Assembly: GCA_018052995.1 (NCBI GenBank)
Contig: JAGPMK010000024.1
Coordinates: forward strand, 1-32,699
Length of the DNA stretch: 32,699 nt
Source of the DNA: Syntrophorhabdales bacterium
GTDB lineage: Bacteria > Desulfobacterota > Syntrophorhabdia > Syntrophorhabdales > Syntrophorhabdaceae
Direction: 5' to 3'
Positions 8,031 to 27,578 of this stretch are shown here, piece after piece. The notes beneath the pieces are model-generated. The model was not told where the DNA came from. It saw nothing but the letters and a program-made list of their open reading frames with translations, and searched no databases. How positions within the stretch are numbered: position 1 is the first letter of the stretch; each line of letters begins with the position of its first letter. The position numbers and the translations under genes are program-made.

Positions 8031-10475
8031 TTATCTGCCCAGCGCCTCCCTTATCTTAAAGGAAAGGTCATGGAATGTGAATGGCTTCTGGAGATATATT
8101 GTGTCATCCATAATAATACCATTATGGACTATGGCATTGTTTGCATAGCCTGACATAAATAGACATTTGATTATAGGTCTTATTTCCTTAATGGCAGTAG
8201 CAAGCTCTTTGCCATTCATCTCTGGCATTATTACATCAGTTATTAAAAGATGTATATCCCCTTTGTAATCTCTTATACCTTTTATTGCCTCTGTAGGTCT
8301 ATTGGCGGCTATTACCTTATATCCTAACTCCTCGAGCATATAGACACATAAATCCAATACATCCCTTTCATCCTCTACAACCAGGACAGTCTCCCCCTTG
8401 CTCATCGCTATATCAGTGTTCTCGCTCACCTGACTCCCTGCGGTATCGCCTTCAAGCCTTGGGATGTAGATCTTAAAGGTAGTGCCTTTTTTTGGTTCAC
8501 TATATACATTTATAAAGCCGTTATTCTGCTTTATAATACCATAGACCGTAGGAAGCCCGAGGCCAGAACCCTTGTCCACATCCTTTGTAGTAAAAAAGGG
8601 TTCAAAGATATGTTCAAGGGTATCCTTTCCCATGCCTATACCATTGTCACTAATTGCCAGCATAACATATTCACCAGGCTCAAATCCCGGATGGCTTTTG
8701 CAATAGACCTGATCAAGGACAATATTATTTGTCTCTATGGTTATGGTGCCTATGTCTTTTATTGCATCCCTTGCATTGACTATCAGGTTTACGATAACCT
8801 GGTTTAACTGGGCAGGATCAAGATTTACATGCCATAGTCTGTTGCCCGGAATCCATATCAACTCTATATTTTCGCCTATAAGCCTGTGTAGCATCTTTAG
8901 CATATCATCTATAATATTATTCAAATCAATAACTGTAGGCGATATGGTCTGTTTCCTTGCAAAGGCGAGGAGATTCCTTGTAAGCTCTGCAGAACGCTGA
9001 CCTGCCTTCTCAATCTCCAGAAACCTATGATGCAATGGATTGGTTGCATCGAGGTTAAGCAGTGCAAGCTGTGTGTGTCCGAGTATTACCGTCAACATAT
9101 TATTGAAATCATGGGCAATACCCCCTGCAAGCCTCCCTATTGCCTCCATCTTCTGTGCCTGCAGAAATTGTTCTTCTATACGCCTATAATCTGTTATGTC
9201 ATAGGCAGTGGTAATAAATAGATCATTTTCCACAAGCACTGCTATAAAATTAATAATCTTTACACTGCCATCTTTGCAGGTTACATTAAACACCATTGGT
9301 ATGCGTTCGCCAATCTGGACATTCTTCATATCCTTCAGCCACATCTCTATAATCATCCGCCTGTAATCTTTATCCGGATATGCCTTTTTAAACCAGGTCT
9401 TTCCATCCGGCAGCTCCTCTTGCGCATAGCCAAAGAGCCTTACCCACTCATTGTTGACATATATGAACCGGCCCCTTTTATCTAAAAGCACCAGACCATA
9501 GGGCATATGCTCCACAAGCAAGGAATATCTCCCTCTTTCGTGCTTAAGCTGTGCCTCTGCCTTCTTTCGTTTTGTTATATCACGAACCAGAGCCAGTATA
9601 TATGTCTCTTTTCCTATAGTCAGTCCGCTCAGACTTACCTCTGTATAAAAAGGTGTCCCATCGAGCGTAGAGTGCACCCACTCAAATGACGGGATCTTAT
9701 CTTTTAAGGCAAGCCTAATATTTTCAGATGCCTCTTTATTGGAATATCTTCCATTAGGGAGCTGGGGTGGTGAAAATTCATCAGGTGTTTTACCTATAAT
9801 CTGTTCTTTTGAGCACCTAAACATCTCAAACGCCTTGGTGTTGCAGTCTATGAATTTGTTTCCTTTTAATAAAAAAATAGCATCATTTGCATTTTCAAAA
9901 AGGCTCCTATATTTCAGCTCGCTCTCACGGAGATTTTCTTGTGCCCTGCTAAGTTTAATGTAGTTCCAGAAACCCTGGAGCAATAGCTTTGCATGTCTTA
10001 CATCGTTTTCATCATAGGGTTCTTCCTTATTGGCAAAACATCCTGCCATCACAACCTTGTCTTTATCTAATACAGGTATCCCCATAAATCTCTTTATGGG
10101 GATATGGCCTTCAGGCATACCTTTTTTTAAAGGATCTGGTCCATCGTAATCGTTGATAATGATTGGTCTTTTTTGTCTTATTGACTCAGCCCATAGACCA
10201 CCTTCTTTTATATTAAATTCTAATGAGCCATCATGTTCTATTTTGCACATCTCAACTATATTCTTTGACCAAAAGGTTGTCTTTAAGACTGCTACATCTT
10301 CATTTATAAAGCCTACATAGGCTAATTTGCTTCCTGTGATCTCAATACATTTTTCAACAATAAAATTCTTAATGTTTTTAGCTGGTTCATGCGAGATCTG
10401 GTGCAAATCAAGGAGAGCCTGCAGAATTAAGACATTTATCTTCTCTTTTTTGTCTTCAAAAACATGTTCAGCCAT
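8031..10475 (-). CDS. GAF-PAS-PAS hybrid sensor histidine kinase with receiver domain
   Basis: Soluble hybrid kinase, 814 aa from ATG 10475. Order: a GAF domain (about 20-180), PAS (about 185-310), a second PAS (about 315-440), the dimerisation/phosphoacceptor helix with GGIAHDFNN (His455), an ATPase domain with NLIVNARDA, DNGIGM and GSGLGL, and a C-terminal receiver with phospho-acceptor Asp747 (ITDVIMP) and the conserved LQKP lysine. No membrane segments are seen, so it should sense a cytoplasmic signal. ATG 10475 has no well-spaced ribosome-binding site. Better signals lie upstream at TTG 10567 in another frame (see the leader entry), so the native protein may be about 28 residues longer. 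It has no linked response regulator gene. Confidence 0.9.
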   Translation of the reverse strand: MAEHVFEDKKEKINVLILQALLDLHQISHEPAKNIKNFIVEKCIEITGSKLAYVGFINEDVAVLKTTFWSKNIVEMCKIEHDGSLEFNIKEGGLWAESIRQKRPIIINDYDGPDPLKKGMPEGHIPIKRFMGIPVLDKDKVVMAGCFANKEEPYDENDVRHAKLLLQGFWNYIKLSRAQENLRESELKYRSLFENANDAIFLLKGNKFIDCNTKAFEMFRCSKEQIIGKTPDEFSPPQLPNGRYSNKEASENIRLALKDKIPSFEWVHSTLDGTPFYTEVSLSGLTIGKETYILALVRDITKRKKAEAQLKHERGRYSLLVEHMPYGLVLLDKRGRFIYVNNEWVRLFGYAQEELPDGKTWFKKAYPDKDYRRMIIEMWLKDMKNVQIGERIPMVFNVTCKDGSVKIINFIAVLVENDLFITTAYDITDYRRIEEQFLQAQKMEAIGRLAGGIAHDFNNMLTVILGHTQLALLNLDATNPLHHRFLEIEKAGQRSAELTRNLLAFARKQTISPTVIDLNNIIDDMLKMLHRLIGENIELIWIPGNRLWHVNLDPAQLNQVIVNLIVNARDAIKDIGTITIETNNIVLDQVYCKSHPGFEPGEYVMLAISDNGIGMGKDTLEHIFEPFFTTKDVDKGSGLGLPTVYGIIKQNNGFINVYSEPKKGTTFKIYIPRLEGDTAGSQVSENTDIAMSKGETVLVVEDERDVLDLCVYMLEELGYKVIAANRPTEAIKGIRDYKGDIHLLITDVIMPEMNGKELATAIKEIRPIIKCLFMSGYANNAIVHNGIIMDDTIYLQKPFTFHDLSFKIREALGR

Positions 10476-15042: not shown

Positions 15043-16156
15043 TTAATCCATTTTTTGTTTAAAAGTCAAGAATAAAAGGTATGCCTTTATAAACTCATCT
15101 ATAGAGCCATCGAGGACCGCCTCGGCATTGTGTGCCTCCACCTTAGTTCTGTGGTCTTTTATAAGCTTGTATGGATGGAGGACATAGGATCGGATCTGGC
15201 TTCCCCAGGCAATGTCCTTCTTCTCTTTATTGATGTTGTTCATCTTTTCTTCCTGCCTCTTCTTCTCCAGTTCATAGAGCCTTGCCTTAAGGATTGACAT
15301 GGCTATAGCCTTGTTTTTATGCTGAGACCTCTCGTTCTGACACTGGACTACAATGCCTGTGGGTATGTGGGTAACCCTTATGGCCGACTCTGTCCTGTTT
15401 ACATGCTGACCCCCTGGTCCACTTGACCTAAAGGTATCAATCCTTAGATCCTCATCTCTGATATCAACATGAATATCTTCAGGCACCTCAGGATAGGCAT
15501 ATACTGATGCAAAGGATGTATGTCTCCTGCTATTGGCATCAAATGGTGATATACGAACAAGCCTATGGATGCCGGACTCGCACTTCATATATCCGTAGGC
15601 ATACTTCCCCTTTATAATAAATGTAACGTTCTTGATACCTGCCTCCTCTCCAGGAAGCATATCCACTATCTGGGTCTCAAAACCTTTTTTCTCAGCCCAC
15701 CTCAGATACATCCTGAGAAGCATCTCTGCCCAGTCCTGCGCCTCTGTCCCCCCAGCCCCTGCATTTATATAGACTATGGCATTCTCGCTGTCATTCTCAC
15801 CGGACAGCATTCTCTCTATCTCATAGCCTTCAATCATGTTTTCAAGATTTTCAACCCTTTTTATAAGCTCTTTTACATCATCGGGGTCATCAGTAGAGCT
15901 TACTATCTCCCATAGTATCTCTATCTCCTCAAGCTCCCTCTCTTTATCCCTCCATCTCTCTGTCTCTTCAATAAGGGCTGACCTCTCTTTCATTATAGAT
16001 TGAGCCTTTGTCTGGTCCTCCCACAATGTCTCCTTTGCTATCTCGTTGTCCAATGCATCTATCTTTCTCTGGAGGGAGGGGGGGTCAAAGATAACCTCTT
16101 AAGGATTCTATCCTTTCTCTGAGGACATCTATCTTTTGTCTTATTTCTTCTAACAT
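15043..16156 (-). CDS. prfB: Peptide chain release factor 2, with programmed +1 frameshift
   Basis: Recognises UGA and UAA stops and triggers peptide release. The first frame runs from ATG 16156 for 23 codons to an in-frame TGA at 16087-16085. A +1 shift at CTT-TGA-C then continues DPPSLQRKIDAL into the main frame, giving 370 aa. Calling only the uninterrupted frame would lose the first 34 residues. The UGA/UAA-specifying SPF tripeptide (VRISPFDANS) and the catalytic GGQ (SGPGGQHVNRTESA) are present. It follows the isocitrate dehydrogenase gene by 22 bases, with a small hairpin (CTCAGA/TCTGAG) and AAGGTGAT between them, and precedes the ZapB-like gene. Confidence 0.96.
16084..16098 (-). promoter_or_regulatory. 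prfB programmed +1 frameshift site
   Basis: On the minus strand the sequence AGAGGTTATCTTTGAC contains an SD-like AGAGGT, three bases, the slippery CTT, the in-frame stop TGA, then C. This is the classical RF2 autoregulatory site: when RF2 is scarce the ribosome slips +1 on CTT and makes full-length factor. It differs from the E. coli version only in the SD-like part. Confidence 0.95.
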
Positions 16157-16178
16157 AAATCACCTTTTTCTCAGAAGA

Positions 16179-17354
16179 TTAATCTGAGCCTTTATCTCCT
16201 ATTCTCTTTGTCACCTCTTCGCCAAATCGGAAACACCCCACAGGGGTCACATCATCCATATTTCTTGCCAGGTCATAGGTCACTATCCTTGATCTTATTG
16301 TCTTTTCTACAGCATCCTCTATTAAAACTGATGCATCATCAAGACCTAGGTATCTGAACATAATAGCGCCAGAGAGGATAAATGATGTGGGGTTTACCAT
16401 GTCCTTGCCTGCATATTTTGGTGCACTGCCATGGGTTGGTTCAAATATGGCAACCCCATCACCGATGTTTGCGCCCGGGGCTACCCCAAGCCCGCCTATT
16501 AGCCCTGCACATGCATCAGATAGGTAATCACCATTTAGATTGGGACAAAGAAGGATGTCATAATCCTGGGGCTTAAGTATTATCTGCATAAACATATTAT
16601 CTGCAATCCTGTCATTTAATACTATTCTGTTTTCCCCATCCCTGCCCGTTTGTCTGTTATTCTCAAGGATTATCTTATCCCCATATCCCTTTGCTACCTC
16701 ATATGCCCATTCCCTGAATGCCCCCTCTGTGTATTTCATTATATTCCCCTTGTGGACAATGGTTATGGTCTTTCTCTTATTCTTTATGGAATAATCTAGA
16801 GCCCATCTTGTAAACCTCTGTGTCCCCTTTTTACTGATAGGCTTTACGCCCACCCCTGAATCATCAGGCAGGATAATCCCTGCCTTATCACGGACAAAAT
16901 CAATAAGATCCCTTGCCTCTTTTGTGCCCTCTCTCCATTCTATGCCCTTGTAGAGGTCCTCTGTGTTCTCCCTAAAGATTATCAAATCTATATTCTCTGG
17001 GGATCTGAGAGGGCTTGGAAGCCCTGGAAAGTATCTTATGGGCCTCATACATACATAGAGATCAAATACCTGCCTCAGGTATACATTGACACTCCTGAAT
17101 CCTCCCCCTACAGGTGTTGTCAGGGGTCCTTTGATAGCTGTTTTGTATGTCCTTACCTTTTCAAGGGTCTCTTCTGGCAGAAGTTGCCCTGTTTTATCAA
17201 GCGCCTTCTGTCCAGCAAGAAGATTTATCCATCTTATTGTCTTTCTTCCGCTATATGCCTTTAATATAGCCTCTTCCAGGACAGGCCTTGAGGCATTCCA
17301 TATGTCCTCACCGGAGCCATCACCCTCAATATAGGGTATATCAATACATTCCAT
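16179..17354 (-). CDS. icd: Isocitrate dehydrogenase, NADP-type
   Basis: Oxidative decarboxylation of isocitrate to 2-oxoglutarate. It is 391 aa of the bacterial Icd type: TTPVGGGFRSVNVYLRQ (isocitrate-binding loop), RPIRYFPG, RENTEDLYKGIEW, and NLNGDYLSDACAG. Cofactor determinants match the NADP form: HGSAPKYAG supplies the Lys-Tyr pair, and VTYDLARNM supplies the later Tyr and Arg. These correspond to K344/Y345 and Y391/R395 of E. coli. The ATG shares one base with the stop of the aconitase small subunit (TGATG), so the genes are coupled. The sequence fits isocitrate rather than isopropylmalate or homoisocitrate, and this identifies the operon as a citrate pathway. Confidence 0.92.
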   Translation of the reverse strand: MECIDIPYIEGDGSGEDIWNASRPVLEEAILKAYSGRKTIRWINLLAGQKALDKTGQLLPEETLEKVRTYKTAIKGPLTTPVGGGFRSVNVYLRQVFDLYVCMRPIRYFPGLPSPLRSPENIDLIIFRENTEDLYKGIEWREGTKEARDLIDFVRDKAGIILPDDSGVGVKPISKKGTQRFTRWALDYSIKNKRKTITIVHKGNIMKYTEGAFREWAYEVAKGYGDKIILENNRQTGRDGENRIVLNDRIADNMFMQIILKPQDYDILLCPNLNGDYLSDACAGLIGGLGVAPGANIGDGVAIFEPTHGSAPKYAGKDMVNPTSFILSGAIMFRYLGLDDASVLIEDAVEKTIRSRIVTYDLARNMDDVTPVGCFRFGEEVTKRIGDKGSD

Positions 17355-17851
17355 CAGATATTCAGCCCTCCATGTTTTTTTATATAATTATCAAGCCCCT
17401 TCTCCCTAAGTATGTCCATCATAATCGGAGGCAATGGGGGAAATCTCTTTGACGTTCCCTTTGTAATATTATACAGAACCCCCTCATCTACCCTTATCTC
17501 CAGCAAATTACCCTCATCTATATCATCGACATTACAGATTATTGCCGCAAGCCCAACATTTATGGCATTCCTATAAAATATCCTGGCGAATGAATTTGCA
17601 ACTATAGCGTCAATGCCTGCCATCTTTATTATAAGAGGGGCATGCTCCCTGCTTGAACCAAGACCAAAATTATTACCACCTGCTATTATATCACCCTTTG
17701 ATATCCTGCTATAGAATCCTGGCGCTATATCATCGAATACATACTTTTTCAGCTCCTCGAGGTTTGACCTTAGGTGATAGAATCTACCGGGTATTATATG
17801 ATCTGTTGAGATATTATCGCCGAATCGCCATGACCTGCCCTTGATTATCAT
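17354..17851 (-). CDS. Aconitase/homoaconitase-family small subunit (LeuD-like)
   Basis: Swivel-domain subunit of a split hydro-lyase, 165 aa, with GRSWRFGDNISTDHIIPGR at the N-terminus and the signature NNFGLGSSREHAP. The substrate loop reads FYHLRSNLEEL. As I recall, homoaconitase-type proteins have an Arg here (YLRT-like), binding an extra carboxylate, whereas isopropylmalate isomerases carry YLVY/T-like loops. That argues for citrate or homocitrate over isopropylmalate. Start and stop overlap the neighbours by one base each (TAATG and TGATG). With the adjacent isocitrate dehydrogenase the best call is aconitase. A homoaconitase or dual activity remains possible. Confidence 0.8.
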   Translation of the reverse strand: MIIKGRSWRFGDNISTDHIIPGRFYHLRSNLEELKKYVFDDIAPGFYSRISKGDIIAGGNNFGLGSSREHAPLIIKMAGIDAIVANSFARIFYRNAINVGLAAIICNVDDIDEGNLLEIRVDEGVLYNITKGTSKRFPPLPPIMMDILREKGLDNYIKKHGGLNI

Positions 17852-19110
17852 TATAGAACCTCCCTGGGGTCTGTGAGTTTACCTTTTAGTGCGCTTGCTG
17901 CTGCTGTTGCAGGAGAGGCAAGGATTATCTGGGATTCAGGATTACCCATCCTTCCAAGAAAATTTCTATTAGATGTGGATACACACACCTCTCTATCCCC
18001 AAGCACGCCAAGATGAAGCCCTATGCAAGGACCGCAGCCCGGCGCAAGTATTGTTGCCCCTGCCTCAAAAAGCCTTGTGAGGATACCCTCTTTCAGCGCC
18101 TGATAGTAGATGGCCCTTGATGCTGGACAGACCAGAAGCCTCACCCCATCATGTTTTCTTTTTCCATCAAGGATTCTGGCGGCTATACGGAAATCTTCTA
18201 TACGGCCATTTGTGCACGAACCTATAAAAACCTGATTGATCATGATATCCTTTACCTCATATTCACCCAACGCCACAACATTATCTACCTGATGTGGCAT
18301 GCTCACATGTGGGGCCAGACTGTCTAGGTCTATCTCATAGGTCTTTTCATACATGGCATCATCATCTGGTTCCAGTGCTTTGAATGATTCTCCCCTCCCC
18401 TTACCCTCCAGATAGGAAAGGGTTATTTTATCAGAGGGAAAGAGCCCACACTTTGCCCCTGCCTCTACTGCCATATTGGCAATGGTCATCCTGTCTTCCA
18501 TATCCATTTTATCCAGTGCGCTACCTGTAAACTCCATGGATTTATAGGTAGCGCCATCAGCACCAAGCATGCCAATTATCTTAAGGATAAGGTCTTTTGA
18601 GCCAACACCCTCTTGAAAACCCCCGGTCAGATGGAAGCTGAATGATTCAGGTACCCTCATCCATGTCCTACCAAGACCCATTGCCACTGCTATATCTGTT
18701 GAGCCCATGCCTGTGGAGAAGGCGGCCATTGCACCACCTGTGCATGTATGGGAATCTGCCCCAACAAGGAGCTCAGTAGGACACAAAAACTGTTCTGTCA
18801 TTATCTGATGGCATATGCCTTCGCCCACATCGAAGATATTCGCCCCATGGGCACTGGCAAACTCCTTTATTGTTATATGGTCATTGGATAGCTCTCTTCT
18901 GGGACTGGGTGATGCATGGTCAATAAAAAAATTTACGCGGCTACCTTCAAAGAGGGATTTAAAGCCCATATCCCTGAACCGCCTAATAGCAAGAGGGGCT
19001 GTCCCATCCTGAAGCAGTATCCTGTCCACATGGACAGTGACATAATCACCCTGCTTCACATCTTTTTTAGTATTTGTGCTCAAAATCTTTTCTGCTAAGG
19101 TCCTACCCAT
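17851..19110 (-). CDS. Aconitase/homoaconitase-family large subunit (LeuC-like)
   Basis: Iron-sulfur subunit of the split hydro-lyase, 419 aa, close in size to archaeal-type LeuC/HacA. The cluster cysteines lie in [13 protein letters not shown] and in the pair GCGPC ([11 protein letters not shown]). Substrate motifs [21 protein letters not shown] and [12 protein letters not shown] are intact. It begins four bases after the Re-citrate synthase candidate and is coupled to the small subunit. In annotation pipelines it will probably be called 3-isopropylmalate dehydratase. The flanking genes make citrate/isocitrate isomerisation more likely. Confidence 0.85.
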
Positions 19111-19114
19111 TACA

Positions 19115-20926
19115 TTAACCCTCCTCTACCTTTGTGAGATCCTCAAATTTTATGTCCAGGCCTAACACACCTACAATCTCACCATATTCATCCCTTATGG
19201 GGCCTGACACGGTAACGCATAGGGCGCCAGTGATCCTCGATGAATAGAGGTCTGTAACATGGATCTGCCCTGTTTTCATGGGGGCTATAAACCAATCTCT
19301 GTCAGAGAAGTCTTCATGGAGGCCTATTTTATAGTATTTTGCCCTGTCCACTACCTGGGTGATATTTTTAGTTATCTTTACACCCTCACTGTTTACTATA
19401 TAAGCAAATTGAACAAATGGATACTCCCCTACTATGCCCTTCAGCGCCTCTTCCTGCTGTTCAGGAGACATACTCTTTATCTTGGTATTTTCTATATACC
19501 TTTCAATGAGGTGGGCTGCCATATCGTATGCCCTCTTCTTTATAAGTTCAAATTCAGATACAAATATCTCGGGTATGTATCTACGACTTAAGTGTTCCAT
19601 CTCCTCCTCTGAGATACATGTAACCCTTCCCTCGTCGTATTGTCTTATTATCCACTTGTTTATCTTTGCCACGCCCGGATGTGTCTTCTGAATCCTATCA
19701 TTACCTGTTAGGGCAAAATAGGAGTTTATCCAGTGGGCAATCCCTGCAAGACCTGATTTATCCGTGATGTTTATGGCAATGGGTCTATTGAGGATCTTAT
19801 TTGTATCAAAGGGTATATATATCTCCTCATTTTTTGCCAGTCCATCTATGTGTATACCAGCAGATGTGGCATTAAAATCAGACCCTATGAAGGGTTGTTG
19901 TTTAGGTATGTGATGACCTATCTCTTTTTCAAAGTAGTTTCTTATCTGGGTTATTACCTGCGGTTGGATGCCATTGTCATTGCCCATGAGGGATATATAT
20001 TCCATTATAAGGCTCTCAATAGGTGCATTGCCAGTTCTCTCCCCTATGCCAAGTAGGGTGCCGTTTACATATGCACATCCATATAGCCAGGCGCTTATAC
20101 TGTTTATTACAACCTTATTGAAATCATTGTGACCATGCCACTCGAGGTATTCTGAAGGGACACCAGCATCATCTATCATGGCCCTTATTATCTTTCCTAT
20201 AGACCTTGGTAGGGCAGTACCGGGGTATGTAACCCCAAGCCCCAGGGTGTCGCAGAGCCTTATCTTCACAGGCATCTTTGCCTGCTGGGATAATTCCATA
20301 AGCGCCTGGGCGAAAGGCACACAGAAACCGTATATATCAGCCCTTGTTATGTCCTCGAAGTGACATCTCGGGACAATATTATTTTCCAGTGCCTTCTCTG
20401 CAATCTTTAAATATTCCTTCAATACCTGGGAGCGGGTCTTTTTGAGCTTCATGAAGATATGATAATCCGATGCACTGGTCAATATACCGGTTTCCCTTAA
20501 ACCGAATTCCTTAACGAGCTCCAGATCCTCTCTGTTAGCCCTTATCCAGCCTGTTATCTCAGGGTATCTATAGCCCTTTTCAAGGCATCTTGTCAGTGCC
20601 TCCCTGTCCTTATCCGTATATAGAAAAAATTCGCACTGCCTTATCACGCCGTTTGGCCCGCCTAACTGATGGATAAAGTCAAAAAGATCCTCTATCTGCT
20701 TGACAGTAAAAGGTGGCCTCGACTGCTGTCCATCCCTGAAGGTGGTATCAGTGATATAGATCTCCTCTGGGGGGTCTATAAGCTCTATCTTATTGTCAAA
20801 CTTTACCTTGCATACCTCGGTAAAAGGGAAGATATCCTTATATAACTGGGGTTCTTCCACATCGATAAGGGGATACCTCTTAAATTTTAAATCATTTTTA
20901 AATATAAAACCCTTTTTCTTTTTCAT
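19115..20926 (-). CDS. HMGL-family acyltransferase, probable Re-citrate synthase, with C-terminal Cache-like domain
   Basis: 603 aa from ATG 20926; AAAGG lies nine bases upstream, and GTG 20932 is the alternative. The N-terminal TIM barrel belongs to the isopropylmalate/homocitrate synthase family: [15 protein letters not shown] with catalytic Arg and metal Asp, and [10 protein letters not shown] with the HxH metal ligands. After a helical linker, residues about 465-600 resemble a Cache/PAS sensor domain ([39 protein letters not shown]) and not the LeuA allosteric domain. There is no signal or membrane segment, so the domain is cytoplasmic. With aconitase and Icd directly downstream, the likely reaction is acetyl-CoA plus oxaloacetate to citrate. 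Homocitrate or citramalate synthesis cannot be excluded by sequence. Confidence 0.8.
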
Positions 20927-21005
20927 AGACACCTGCCTTTAAAGATTATTATGTTGAAAAGATGGAACACTTCAGGGGAAAACAGATAATTGATTGATTC
21001 TGCCT

Positions 21006-22757
21006 CTATTTTTCATGGACAACCCTTATCTTTAACTCATTTAGTTGCCTCTGACTGACCCTTGATGGTGCATCTGTCAGAAGACATACGCCCTTCTGTG
21101 TTTTAGGAAACGGTATGACATCCCTTATACTCTCCTGTCCCATAAGCATCATGAGTATCCTGTCAAAGCCGAATGCTATGCCGCCATGGGGTGGCGCACC
21201 CATCTCCAGCGCCTCGAGGAGAAAACCGAACTTTTCCTCTGCCTCTGTCTCATCTATATTGAGGAGTTTAAACATCTCTGCCTGTTCCTCCCTCCTATAG
21301 ATCCTTATACTGCCACCTCCTATCTCAACACCGTTTAAGACAAGGTCATATGCCTTTGATTTCAGTGATTCATAATGCCCGTCAAACCTCTTTATATCAG
21401 TCTTGGATGCTGTGAAGGGATGGTGGCATGCCACGTATCGCCTCTGCTCCTCACTGTATTCAAATAGAGGAAAATCTGTAATCCATAGAAACTTATATAG
21501 GCCCTTATGGATAAGCCCATATCTTTCTCCAAGATATAGCCTGAATCGACCCATAAGGTCGCTCACCTTCTGCCTGTTTCCGGTCATTATAAAGATGACA
21601 TCGCCATCTTTCACATCAAGCCTTTTAATTATAGAGGATCTTTCTTCATCCTTGAAATATTTCACAACAGGGGATTGAAGTGTATCACCATCCCTTTTTA
21701 TCCAGATTAACCCCTCTGCGCCTATCTGCTTTGCCACGTCTACCGAGGTATCCAAGTCTTTTCTTGAAAGATTTTTGCCGCTCAGCACCATAGACCTTAC
21801 ACTGCCTGTATTTTCGATTGCCTTTTTTATAACCCCAAAATCTGTGTTTTTAAATATATCTGTAATATCAATAATGGGCAGGTCAAATCTTAGATCAGGT
21901 TTGTCTGTCCCATAGGTCTCTACTGCCTCATCATAGGTCATGCGCAAAAAAGGCTCATCCCATACCTCACCTTTTACAGACCTATAGATCTCCTTTATAA
22001 GACCCTCTCCCATATCTATCACATCCTCGACATCCACAAAACTCATCTCCATATCTATCTGGGTGAACTCAGGCTGTCTGTCTGCCCTTAGGTCCTCATC
22101 CCTGAAACACCGAACGATCTGAAAATACCTATCAAAACCTGCTACCATGAGTATCTGTTTAAATAACTGGGGAGACTGCGGGAGGGCATAAAAAGCCCCT
22201 GGATTCAAACGGCTTGGCACAATGAAGTCCCTTGCCCCCTCAGGTGTGCTCTTTGTAAGCATAGGGGTCTCTAATTCGTAAAAACCCTCTGATGCAAGAT
22301 AATCCCTTACTGCCTTGTATACATTGCTTCTTTTAACAAAGATATCCTGCACCACAGGCCTTCTCATGTCAAGATATCTATATTTCAGTTTTATTAACTC
22401 ATTGGGTTCATCCTCATCAAGCTGAAATGGAAGGGGCTTGGAGGTATTGAGAATATTGAGGTTATTTACAAGGACCTCAACCATCCCGGTAGGGATGTTA
22501 GGATTTTCTGTGCCTTCAGGCCTTTTTTCTACACGACCTTTTATCTGGATTACGTATTCCTGTTTAATATCCCCTGCCATTTCATGGGACTCTTTTGATA
22601 TCTCAGGGGAGAATACAACCTGCACAACCCCTGTCACATCGCGCAGATCGACAAAAATAAGCCCACCATGGTCTCTTCTCCTATAGACCCATCCTGCAAG
22701 GAGCATCTCTCTCCCTATATCCTCAGCATTAACATTACCGCAATATTTATCCCTCAA
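21006..22757 (-). CDS. aspS: Aspartyl-tRNA synthetase, predicted non-discriminating
   Basis: Class II synthetase of the bacterial long type, 583 aa with the anticodon-binding OB fold first, motif 2 (FRDEDLRADRQPEFTQ), the bacterial GAD insertion, and motif 3 (GIAFGFDRILMML). The start is TTG 22757 after GGAGGCAGACA. The anticodon domain has RRRDHGG, and RPEGTENPN follows, so His and Gly occupy the two positions reported in Pseudomonas AspRS to allow charging of tRNA-Asn as well as tRNA-Asp. This predicts that Asn-tRNA is completed by GatCAB amidation, which lies outside the window. It leads the minus-strand cluster from its own promoter. Confidence 0.95.
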   Translation of the reverse strand: MRDKYCGNVNAEDIGREMLLAGWVYRRRDHGGLIFVDLRDVTGVVQVVFSPEISKESHEMAGDIKQEYVIQIKGRVEKRPEGTENPNIPTGMVEVLVNNLNILNTSKPLPFQLDEDEPNELIKLKYRYLDMRRPVVQDIFVKRSNVYKAVRDYLASEGFYELETPMLTKSTPEGARDFIVPSRLNPGAFYALPQSPQLFKQILMVAGFDRYFQIVRCFRDEDLRADRQPEFTQIDMEMSFVDVEDVIDMGEGLIKEIYRSVKGEVWDEPFLRMTYDEAVETYGTDKPDLRFDLPIIDITDIFKNTDFGVIKKAIENTGSVRSMVLSGKNLSRKDLDTSVDVAKQIGAEGLIWIKRDGDTLQSPVVKYFKDEERSSIIKRLDVKDGDVIFIMTGNRQKVSDLMGRFRLYLGERYGLIHKGLYKFLWITDFPLFEYSEEQRRYVACHHPFTASKTDIKRFDGHYESLKSKAYDLVLNGVEIGGGSIRIYRREEQAEMFKLLNIDETEAEEKFGFLLEALEMGAPPHGGIAFGFDRILMMLMGQESIRDVIPFPKTQKGVCLLTDAPSRVSQRQLNELKIRVVHEK

Positions 22758-22893: not shown

Positions 22894-25194
22894 TTAGTCT
22901 TCTTTTAAAAATTCAGGGGTGCGGGTTTGTAGCTGAGGCAACATCTCATTTATAATCCTCAATAGCATCTCTGCTGATATGGGCTTGGAGATAAAGGCAA
23001 TATTTTTATCATCAGGGGGGATTTTTGAAAGCATGTCTCTATCGTATCCGCTTATAAAGATAAACCTTGTGTTTTCTTTTATTGACCTTATCTCATTATA
23101 GGCATCAGCACCATCTTTTTTTGGCATGATAAGATCTGTAATCACAAGGTCAATGTTATCTTCTTCTTTGAAGATAGCAACGAGTTTTTCCCCATCCTGG
23201 GCATCCATGGTCTTGTATCCATGGTATTCCAGCACGTCTTTTAAAAAACCTCTTACGTTTTCGTCATCTTCCCCAATTAGTATGGTACCCCTGCCTTTTG
23301 GAAATTCAATTTTTTCCTTTAAATCTTCTCTGGTTGTCATATCTACCAGTGGTAGGTAAATATTAAATGTTGCCCCTTTCCCCGGGCTGCTAACCACTGT
23401 TATAAAACCACTATGCTGCTTCACAATGCCATAGACGCTTGCAAGACCAAGGCCTGTGCCCTTACCTGTCTCCTTTGTGGTGAAAAAGGGATCGAATATC
23501 TTATCCATTATCTCCCTGTCTATCCCACAGCCTGTATCTGAGACACTTATCAATGCATAATCACCCCTTTCACCAAAGCCATGGGTATCTATAAAATCTT
23601 CATCTATTTTTGCAGTATCTATCTTGAGCGTAAATCTTCCTCCATCAGGCATTGCATCCCTTGCATTGGTGGTGAGATTAAATAGCATCTGGCTTAACTG
23701 TGTTTTGTCTGCCATTATAGTGGGATTTTTCTCTGAGGCAATAATCTTAATCTCTATATTTTCTGTTAAGAGGCGTTTTAATAGCCTCTTTGTCTCTTTA
23801 ATCTCATTGTTTAGATCTAGGGGTTGTAGGTTTATAGGTTGCCTTCTGCTGAAGGCAAGGAGGTTTTTAACGAGATCAGCCATTTTGTTGGATACAGATA
23901 TTATCTGGTCGAGATATTTCTTTATATGGCTATCCTGGTTTAGTTTCATCTGGGATAGGGTTGTATACCCCATGATTGCCGTTAGAAAGTTGTTAAAATC
24001 ATGGGCAATACCGCCTGTAAGTGTCCCTATTGCCTCCATCTTCTGGGCATGGTTATATTGCTCTCTTAGACGTTCAAGCTCTTTTTCTTTTCTCTTTTTC
24101 TCTGTTATGTCTTCAATTATCCCCTGAAAATACATGATGTTGTTGTTTTCATCATATACCGCGGACATGCCTTCAGAGATCCATATCCTTGTCCCATCTT
24201 TTCTGTAGACCTCGGTCTCAAATCCCCTCACATCACTACCACCTCTTATAATCTCCAATAGCCTCTCCCTCTGATAGGGATTCACATAGAGTTGGGTCGC
24301 CACATCCTTTATGTTCTCAGATAGGTCCTCAAAGGAATCATAGCCAAGGATTTTTATCAAGGCAGGATTGGCGATAACAAACCTTCCATCTACTGTTGTC
24401 TGGTAGATCCCCTCTGTGGCATTTTCAAAAATGGAACGATAGCTTGTCTCAATCTTTTCCTTTTCTGTTATGTCAACAAAGGTCAGCAAAGACAGCCCTG
24501 CCGCCAGAATCACCGAGGCAATCTCTACCCTTTTCTTGGTGCCATCCTCGCATGTTATAGTAAATGTTCTTTTGGTGGATCTACCAACCTGGGATGTCTC
24601 TATCTCCTGTTTCCAGAAGGAGATAGCCTTTTCCCTGTATTCTTCGTCAGGATATGCCTTTTTAAACCATGTGTCCCTGTCTGGGATGTCATCTAAATCA
24701 TAGCCAAACATCTCCTTGAATTTAGGGTTAATGTAGAGGTATTTTTCGTTTGCATCGATAAGTGCCATGCCAAAGGGTGCATTATCTGTAAGGATTAAAA
24801 GCTTTTCCTTTTCTGCCATCAATTCGTCTTCCAGCTTCTTTTTCTCAGTTATATCATGGGCTATAATCAAGACCTTCTCTACATTACCTTGTGTATCTGT
24901 GAGTGGGCTCATATAGGAAATATAGCGTCTACCATCACGCTCATCCTCAAAGGAGGCTGGCTGTGCTGTTCTTATGATATGCTCTATATGGGATCTCCTT
25001 CTTTGTGCAATATCAGGGGGAAACAGTTGACAAAAACTGGCGCCATCTAATTCTTTTACTGTCTTCCCTATCCTTTTTGCCGAGACATCATTTGCAAAAA
25101 GGATTATGCCTTCTTTATCTACTATAAGGGCGGCCTCCTTAAAGGAGTTGATCAGGGTTTCCAATGCACTTTTGCTAATCTCCTCTGCCGGCAT
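22894..25194 (-). CDS. PAS-PAS-PAS hybrid sensor histidine kinase with receiver domain
   Basis: 766 aa from ATG 25194, six bases after AAAAAAGGA; an in-frame TTG at 25224 is the alternative. Three PAS domains (about 5-120, 125-250 and 255-375) precede the phosphoacceptor helix (GGIAHDFNN, His398), an ATPase domain ([23 protein letters not shown]) and a receiver domain with Asp687 (VITDLIMP) and the FISKP lysine. No membrane helix is visible, so the input is cytoplasmic. The second PAS is closely related to the second PAS of the kinase at 8031-10475 (both contain TWFKKAYPD), and the third to the third PAS of the divergent HD-GYP protein (shared YVNP and RGFET). It lies 54 bases downstream of the bacteriohemerythrin gene, probably one transcript. 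Confidence 0.92.
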
Positions 25195-25248
25195 ATATTT
25201 TCCTTTTTTAGCCCATCTTTTCAATCAATGCTAATATAATCAGACAGA

Positions 25249-25844: not shown

Positions 25845-27578
25845 ATGTGTAGCACTGATGAAGAAATCTTTAAGGGCCTTTTTTTGCTCTCCCCTATAGG
25901 CATGTTTGTTACGCAAAGAGGCATGCTTGTCCTTGTAAACCCCAAATTTGAGGAGCTTACCGGTTATAGCGCGAAGGACCTTATGGGTTTTCACTATGAG
26001 GATCTTGTCTATCCTGAAGACAGAGAGAGGTGCAGGCTCCAGGCAATCAAGACAATTAAGGGGATGCAATCTACCCCATATGAATTCAGGGCTGTTAGAA
26101 AAGATGGAGGGGTAAGATGGGTTATGGCAACCATTACCTCAATGAATTATCAGGGAAAACGCTCCGGGCTTGGCGTTATATTAGATATTACTGAAAAAAA
26201 GATGCTTGAGGAAAGACTTCATGAGACTATGGAGCAGTTAAGCACAGTAATTGAAACAGTTCAGGATGGTATAACATTCAGCGATGAACAGGGCAGGTTC
26301 TATGTCTATAATTCAGAGATGGAAAGGATTACAGGATATAGCATGGAAGAGGCAAATTCATTCAAGGACTTTATGACAATCCTCTATCCCGACAACGAAG
26401 AATACATAAAAGCCGTAGAGAGGCTGGAGGCACTAAAGGATAAAAAGACGATGAGGAATGTAGAGACAGTATTTACCACAAAACAGGGCATCAAAAAACA
26501 CATACTTTTGTCTACCTGTCTTATCCCTTATAAGGAAAAAACCATGTTCTTAAGTGTATATCATGATGCAACAGAACAGAAAGAGGCAGAGACAGCATTA
26601 AGATTATCAGAGGAGAGATACCGTTCTATATTTGACAATGCAGTGGAGGGGATCTTTCAGTCAACCCCCTCGGGCAGGTTTCTTCATGTCAATCCATCCC
26701 TGGCAAGGATGTATGGCTTTTCTGACCCTGAGGAGCTGATAGCCGCCAAAGATGATATACAGTCACAGCTATATGTAAATCCCGATGACCGTTTACATCT
26801 AAAGGAATTGCTTGAAAAAGATAGTATTGTCCGTGGCTTTGAGACACAATTTTACAGGAAAGATAAAAGTATCCTGTGGGCATCTATTAGTGCGAGGATT
26901 GTGAGGGATACCGCTGGAAATGTTTTGTATTATGAGGGAACCATCGAAGACATTACAAAGAGAAAAACAGTAGAGGAAAGGTTAAACAGAACCCTGGAAA
27001 GATTAAGAAGATCAATAGGGATTACTGTTCAGACAATTGTTCAGATAGTTGAGTCGAGAGACCCTTATACAGCAGGTCACCAATTAAAGGTATCACAGCT
27101 CGCAAGGGCAATTGCCCAGGAGATGAATCTACCTGATAATGTCATCGACGGTATACACATGACAGGGCTCATCCACGATATAGGCAAGATCTCAGTCCCC
27201 TCTGATATCCTCAGTAAGCCCGGAGAACTAACCTATTTTGAGTTACAATTGATAAGGCTGCATCCCCAAAAGGGCTATGAAATACTCAAGGATATAGAGT
27301 CTGAATGGCCTATTGCCCAGATAGTTCTCCAACATCATGAGAGGATTGACGGCTCTGGATATCCTCAGGGTCTAAAGGGTGACGAGATTCTTATAGAGGC
27401 AAGGATACTTGCTGTTGCAGATGTGGTGGAGGCAATGACATCCCACCGGCCTTATAGATCTGCCCTTGGTGTCATGGCAGCCCTTGAGGAGATAGAGATA
27501 AACAAGGGTATCTTATATGATAGGGATGTGGTGGAGGCATGTATTAGGCTATTTAAAGAGGGGAGATTTCATTTTTAG
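25845..27578 (+). CDS. PAS-PAS-PAS HD-GYP protein, predicted cyclic-di-GMP phosphodiesterase
   Basis: 577 aa. Three PAS domains (about 5-120, 125-245 and 250-375) feed a C-terminal HD-GYP domain (about 385-575) that hydrolyses cyclic-di-GMP. Catalytic motifs are complete: LIHDIGK (His444-Asp445), LHPQKGYEIL, HHERIDGSGYPQGL (His497-His498-Glu499 with intact GYP) and ADVVEAMTSHRPYR. No membrane segment is seen, so sensing is cytoplasmic. The third PAS is clearly related to the third PAS of the divergent kinase. The ATG at 25845 has no recognisable ribosome-binding site, so the mRNA may have a very short leader or the start may differ. It has no close downstream partner. Confidence 0.9.
   Translation: MCSTDEEIFKGLFLLSPIGMFVTQRGMLVLVNPKFEELTGYSAKDLMGFHYEDLVYPEDRERCRLQAIKTIKGMQSTPYEFRAVRKDGGVRWVMATITSMNYQGKRSGLGVILDITEKKMLEERLHETMEQLSTVIETVQDGITFSDEQGRFYVYNSEMERITGYSMEEANSFKDFMTILYPDNEEYIKAVERLEALKDKKTMRNVETVFTTKQGIKKHILLSTCLIPYKEKTMFLSVYHDATEQKEAETALRLSEERYRSIFDNAVEGIFQSTPSGRFLHVNPSLARMYGFSDPEELIAAKDDIQSQLYVNPDDRLHLKELLEKDSIVRGFETQFYRKDKSILWASISARIVRDTAGNVLYYEGTIEDITKRKTVEERLNRTLERLRRSIGITVQTIVQIVESRDPYTAGHQLKVSQLARAIAQEMNLPDNVIDGIHMTGLIHDIGKISVPSDILSKPGELTYFELQLIRLHPQKGYEILKDIESEWPIAQIVLQHHERIDGSGYPQGLKGDEILIEARILAVADVVEAMTSHRPYRSALGVMAALEEIEINKGILYDRDVVEACIRLFKEGRFHF

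Follow-up and report, generated by a model that had tools for sequence, protein, structure and literature searches.

A tightly packed set of four genes on the minus strand of a contig from a Syntrophorhabdales bacterium of the phylum Desulfobacterota (positions 16179-20926 of JAGPMK010000024.1, assembly GCA_018052995.1; the whole 32,699-nucleotide stretch is hereafter the window) very probably converts oxaloacetate to 2-oxoglutarate via a Re-type citrate synthase, a LeuCD-type aconitase and isocitrate dehydrogenase (Icd). The first gene (gene 1; 19115..20926) encodes an HMGL-family acyltransferase of 603 residues counted from the ATG at 20926, which has AGGCAGG before it, the alternative start being a GTG at 20932 (605 residues). 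It is followed, after a gap of 4 bases, by the LeuC-type large subunit (17851..19110) and the LeuD-type small subunit (17354..17851) of a hydro-lyase and by Icd (16179..17354), with one-base overlaps between LeuC and LeuD and between LeuD and Icd. The products fall into the Pfam families HMGL-like (PF00682), Aconitase (PF00330), Aconitase_C (PF00694) and Iso_dh (PF00180), respectively. The reading rests on sequence, namely the order and families of the genes, the clade of gene 1, the absence of alternatives from the assembly, and the fold and kept ligand residues of a Cache domain on gene 1. An initial annotation had described four overlapping or nearly touching genes for an HMGL acyltransferase, a split LeuC/LeuD-like hydro-lyase and an NADP-type Icd. 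The open reading frames (ORFs), the Pfam matches, the cut-off of the Icd model PRK07006 and synteny in 36 of 40 other regions of the order bear out this description, and its proposal of a Re-citrate synthase with a non-standard aconitase is supported as a prediction. It mentioned neither the Cache domain nor the linkage to aspS.

Gene 1 is predicted to be a Re-citrate-synthase-type HMGL enzyme, for which we infer both the substrates and the Re-face stereochemistry. In a tree of 47 rows, the 28 rows of the gene 1 family formed one branch with 100/100 support, apart from LeuA, CimA and NifV. The HMGL-like catalytic TIM barrel (residues 56-329; 19940..20761, minus strand) matched homocitrate synthase 6ktq_B with Z 34.6 and a root-mean-square deviation (rmsd) of 3.6 over 371 aligned residues, and it retains the catalytic residues typical of LeuA enzymes, namely the RD of DTTFRDG, the HGHND motif and the AGIH histidine. 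The nearest named relatives include Syntrophorhabdaceae and Syntrophorhabdus records (91% and 81% identity), which assigns the window to the Desulfobacterota rather than to clostridia, and no clostridial, Syntrophus aciditrophicus or Dehalococcoides record occurred among the best 80 of 590 matches in the scan of genome contigs. A plasmid search, of which 40 of 216 records were listed, returned LeuA/CimA/NifV-type matches and two Deinococcus homologues. At both Deinococcus plasmid loci (L338:1708-4310 and L339:1715-4293), a gene 1 homologue without the Cache domain lies divergent from a citrate/2-methylcitrate synthase gene.

The genome itself offers gene 1 as the sole citrate synthase candidate. 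Its assembly (1.93 Mb, 93.7% complete) gave 0 matches to the Pfam citrate synthase family of Si-type enzymes in a search that was positive for 13 of 14 control genomes, and its three HMGL genes are gene 1, one LeuA and one CimA. The aconitase-family search yielded two genes, the operon large subunit and leuC, and hence neither AcnA nor AcnB. Thus, the complete Si-citrate synthase and AcnB set and the clustering with leucine or homocitrate enzymes, which the initial annotation had named as what would speak against its proposal, were both absent when the genome was checked as it had suggested. Across the order, gene 1 was present in 44 of 46 genomes (the two others being 66% and 74% complete) and a Si-citrate synthase in 1 of 46. 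Among 297 genomes of the phylum, 143 carried gene 1, and with Si-citrate synthase counted by strong matches, 118 had gene 1 only, 120 Si-citrate synthase only, 25 both and 34 neither (Fisher p 1e-26, uncorrected for relatedness), so that the two largely replace each other. Given its own clade, the lack of Si-citrate synthase, AcnA and AcnB in the genome and this mutual replacement across the phylum, gene 1 is best read as a Re-type citrate synthase. A Thermodesulfatator sp. metagenome-assembled genome (MAG) also carries a Cache-fused gene 1 (L258), its other HMGL matches being one LeuA-like, one CimA-like and one weak match in a long frame. Thermodesulfatator indicus is reported to have a Re-citrate synthase homologue and to deliver acetate label to glutamate C-1 (PMC12743299). 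By our own reasoning this labelling would need Re-type citrate, since C-4 of oxaloacetate derives from unlabelled CO2.

Beyond the barrel, gene 1 carries about 130 extra C-terminal residues forming a Cache/PDC domain (about residues 474-600; 19127..19507, minus strand), a fold usual in receptors at the cell surface, which match PF22673 (E 1.7e-14), with PF02743 just below its own cut-off. All 74 family members tested matched PF22673, including records labelled Nitrospirota, Spirochaetota, Omnitrophota, Armatimonadota, Elusimicrobiota, Lentisphaerota, Fibrobacterota and Termititenax, most of which are MAGs whose taxon labels may err. The domain was modelled with a predicted local distance difference test (pLDDT) score of 84.3, and the model matched the sensor domains of KinD (Z 16.4, rmsd 4.1, 145 aligned), CitA (Z 14.8, rmsd 2.4, 127 aligned) and Tlp3 with isoleucine (Z 14.5, rmsd 3.5, 138 aligned). 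Candidate ligand residues are R543, W545, F546, Y561, S563 and D591, and profile alignment places R126, W128, Y129, Y144 and D173 of PctA (numbering and role of R126 as in PMC10104139) on R543, W545, F546, Y561 and D591. Across 216 sequences W545, S563 and D591 never vary, R543 is conserved in 212 and F546 in 211, and position 561 is Tyr in 189 and Phe in 16; among 29 representatives below 65% identity, the Trp, Ser and Asp are found in 29/29 and the Arg in 26/29. No stretch of the protein encoded in the window is strongly hydrophobic (maximum 1.08), so that the protein is read as cytosolic; among the 74 members, 6 barely attain 1.6.

The kept Arg, Trp and Asp, whose PctA counterparts bind amino acids, suggest a cytosolic allosteric site, and the Cache domain is probably a ligand sensor. 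Its ligand may be an amino acid, a tentative choice that leads because the carboxylate- and amine-binding residues are kept; glutamate or aspartate would be the first guess, followed by an oxo acid, such as the pyruvate in KinD. That the domain is instead a structural or dimerization element with no ligand sensing seems less likely. PAS/Cache domains can act in dimerization (PMC8694187), and the six-position amino acid motif of PctA (Y121, R126, W128, Y129, Y144 and D173) is incomplete here, with five positions kept or conservatively changed and that of Y121 lost (Glu in 112 of 216 sequences). Cache-less copies exist as well: 144 of 150 gene 1 regions have the domain, two are cut, and four complete genes (L196, L221, L222 and L224) go without it, which indicates that catalysis does not need it in every copy. 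An approximately unbiased (AU) test of a single Cache gain gave p 0.355 (20 Cache rows versus 4 without). Against a purely structural role, R543, W545 and D591, the equivalents of ligand-site residues, rank among the most conserved positions of the domain, and the mean conservation of 0.967 over five positions was reached by 0 of 20,000 random sets of five Cache positions (p 0.0012 with the lost Y121 position included).

The operon itself is a stable unit. Within the order, 36 of the 40 other regions contain all four genes and the remaining four are truncated at contig ends; the gene order is the same in 34 of 34 regions with at least 3.6 kb downstream, so that a chance grouping is excluded. 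Outside the order the full set was found in 6 of 110 regions and Icd alone in 23 of 110. One of these six (L221) has a monomeric aconitase, of the PRK07229 kind, which together with an Icd-family ORF adjoins a Cache-less gene 1 copy. In a Desulfovibrio desulfuricans MAG (L292:9859-12156), a YbhJ-type hydratase (NF008503, 1205 bits; YbhJ being the name of PRK11413) adjoins a Cache-fused gene 1 and Icd, which suggests that YbhJ-type proteins can be aconitases. Elsewhere (L196:5545-9554) the genes after a Cache-less copy encode malate dehydrogenase and the two fumarase subunits. These varied aconitases, or malate dehydrogenase with fumarase, next to gene 1 support the citrate-to-2-oxoglutarate reading.

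The LeuCD-type pair is placed in the pathway as a predicted aconitase. The cluster motifs SCTNG and CGPC and the GSSRE motif are all present, and in the aligned rows shown the large subunit agrees with PRK07229 aconitases, against LeuC, in its GICHQ motif and in two gaps of one residue each. In the small subunit, the substrate-recognition loop (17765..17776, minus strand) bears HLRS, with Arg28, in every one of the 42 operon small subunits; HLRS is absent from the 4 LeuD compared, whose loop is different and one residue shorter. This loop sets the substrate preference in this hydro-lyase family (PMC7308503).

The fourth gene meets the NADP-Icd equivalog PRK07006 (518 versus 490 bits), just misses TIGR00183 (546.6 versus 567.3) and matches Bacillus subtilis Icd 1hqs with E 3.9e-137. 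The initial annotation had held that this identity fixes the pathway, which is too strong, since the 93.7% complete genome yielded no PF00180 gene other than Icd, and its leu operon (L234:3268-7585) reads leuA-leuC-leuD-asd with no leuB. Its forecast that automated annotation would label these as leucine or lysine pathway genes held in part: gene 1 meets no NCBIfam cut-off and the hydro-lyase subunits reach only broad subfamily models, but Icd is named correctly. The pathway might hold while Icd, perhaps along with the LeuCD-like pair, stands in for LeuB in making leucine as well, although this appears rather improbable. Besides the single PF00180 gene, the same leu operon without leuB recurs in 20 of 20 loci of the order (L341-L360; in L353 leuA lies off the contig); nevertheless, Icd matches classical Icd, and leuB may lie elsewhere in this and other genomes of the order or in the unassembled part, if Icd does not double for LeuB.

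Several points weigh against the proposed pathway as a whole. The 47-row tree includes no biochemically proven Re-citrate synthase, and two Re-citrate synthase groups only about 28% identical to each other are described (PMC12016533), to either of which gene 1 may belong. A strong Si-citrate synthase match accompanies gene 1 in 25 of its 143 carriers in the phylum. The discriminating sites of the large subunit are divided, with 4 agreeing with aconitase, 3 with LeuC and 5 with neither, and the absent leuB could leave room for a second role of Icd.

Readings in which the operon makes something other than 2-oxoglutarate were rejected on the clade, the cut-offs, DapB, the existing leu operon and CimA, and the neighbours. 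A homocitrate route for lysine or FeMo-cofactor, with gene 1 as homocitrate synthase, a homoaconitase and a homoisocitrate-type dehydrogenase, is very improbable: nifV (TIGR02660) is the best NCBIfam model of gene 1 by E-value, and the small-subunit loop carries Arg as does that of the M. jannaschii homoaconitase, but the nifV score of 140 bits falls far short of the 463 cut-off, NifV stands outside the gene 1 clade, homoisocitrate dehydrogenase models stay far below cut-off for Icd, and DapB is present in the genome, so that lysine probably comes from a different pathway. Equally hard to sustain is a second leucine or citramalate set, with gene 1 as a paralogue of isopropylmalate synthase or CimA and the pair as an isopropylmalate isomerase, since the higher identity of the large subunit to LeuC (45%) than to PRK07229 aconitases (about 37%) and the leu operon without leuB are set against a genome that already has leuA-leuC-leuD and CimA, a separate gene 1 clade, and malate dehydrogenase, fumarase or aconitase neighbours elsewhere.

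The oxaloacetate-to-2-oxoglutarate operon has partial counterparts among known systems. Re-citrate synthases of Clostridium kluyveri, Syntrophus aciditrophicus and Dehalococcoides are, like gene 1, HMGL/LeuA-like and replace Si-citrate synthase in anaerobes; compared by family rather than by alignment with a proven sequence, gene 1 differs by its C-terminal Cache domain. The C. kluyveri enzyme has about 450 residues. Isopropylmalate synthase (LeuA) likewise joins a catalytic barrel to an extra C-terminal domain, which in gene 1 is a Cache and not a LeuA domain. In LeuA this domain binds leucine and has an allosteric feedback role. Heterodimeric homoaconitase and isopropylmalate isomerase share the fold, the subunit split and GSSRE with the operon pair, which is distinguished by its HLRS loop, one residue longer than in LeuD, and by its aconitase operon context. 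Gene 1 shares its domain fold with the dCache_1AA sensors PctA and Tlp3 and with KinD, and five ligand positions with PctA; unlike these, its Cache is a single PDC fused to an enzyme with no transmembrane-like segment, and the Y121 position is lost. Upadhyay et al. describe Cache only with signalling outputs, and only Diacid_rec and YkuI_C as principally intracellular (PMC4822843); YkuI_C of B. subtilis YkuI is paired with an EAL signalling domain, whereas the Cache of gene 1 is paired with a metabolic enzyme. For gene arrangement, an aconitase gene is reported next to the Re-citrate synthase of C. thermocellum (PMC6115520), and an aksA-acnB-icd operon in Clostridioides difficile (PMC3510511). 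The latter likewise unites an HMGL-type synthase, aconitase and icd, but its aconitase is a single gene, acnB, whereas the operon here has a two-subunit LeuCD-type enzyme and aspS upstream. A literature look that was not exhaustive found nothing on the control of such a citrate synthase, and no link between Cache and citrate synthase was found among the best-ranked matches.

The conserved upstream neighbour aspS (21006..22757, minus strand; PRK00476, 834 bits) lies 79 bases upstream of gene 1 on the same strand. It immediately precedes gene 1 in 39 of 39 regions of the order with at least 1.5 kb upstream, in 50 of 103 other regions of the phylum and in 29 of 72 named loci. An Rfam search around the operon gave no match, and promoter and terminator scans there gave counts close to those of shuffled sequence. 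Downstream of the operon lies prfB, and CTTTGAC occurs near its start (16053-16158), upstream of the listed prfB ORF, at what we take to be the usual programmed frameshift site. The window also encodes three multi-PAS signalling proteins (8031-10475, 22894-25224 and 25845-27578), two of them hybrid histidine kinases and one with an HD domain.

Taken as a pathway, oxaloacetate would go either to aspartate or to citrate. Gene 1 would join acetyl-CoA to the Re face of oxaloacetate, forming citrate, the two-subunit LeuCD-type aconitase, tuned by its Arg-bearing loop, would convert citrate to isocitrate, and NADP-Icd would yield 2-oxoglutarate and NADPH, and hence glutamate. The Cache domain occupies the position where isopropylmalate synthase carries its leucine-binding domain, and probably controls the enzyme of the first step: its proposed ligand is a small carboxylate, in the likeliest case an amino acid (glutamate or aspartate), whose binding at R543, W545 and D591 would alter gene 1 activity. 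Our results raise the possibility, which we put forward with some reserve, that a receptor-type Cache domain moved into the cytosol as an ACT-like amino acid sensor, gating oxaloacetate between aspartate (the aspS side) and glutamate (the Icd side) across many lineages of anaerobes.

Should the Cache domain prove allosteric, a receptor sensor module would have been reused inside a biosynthetic enzyme. The combination of HMGL and PF22673, often beside aspS, could serve as a sequence tag for naming such a citrate synthase in the genomes of many anaerobes, and these loci further suggest that hydro-lyases of the LeuCD and YbhJ types work as aconitases.

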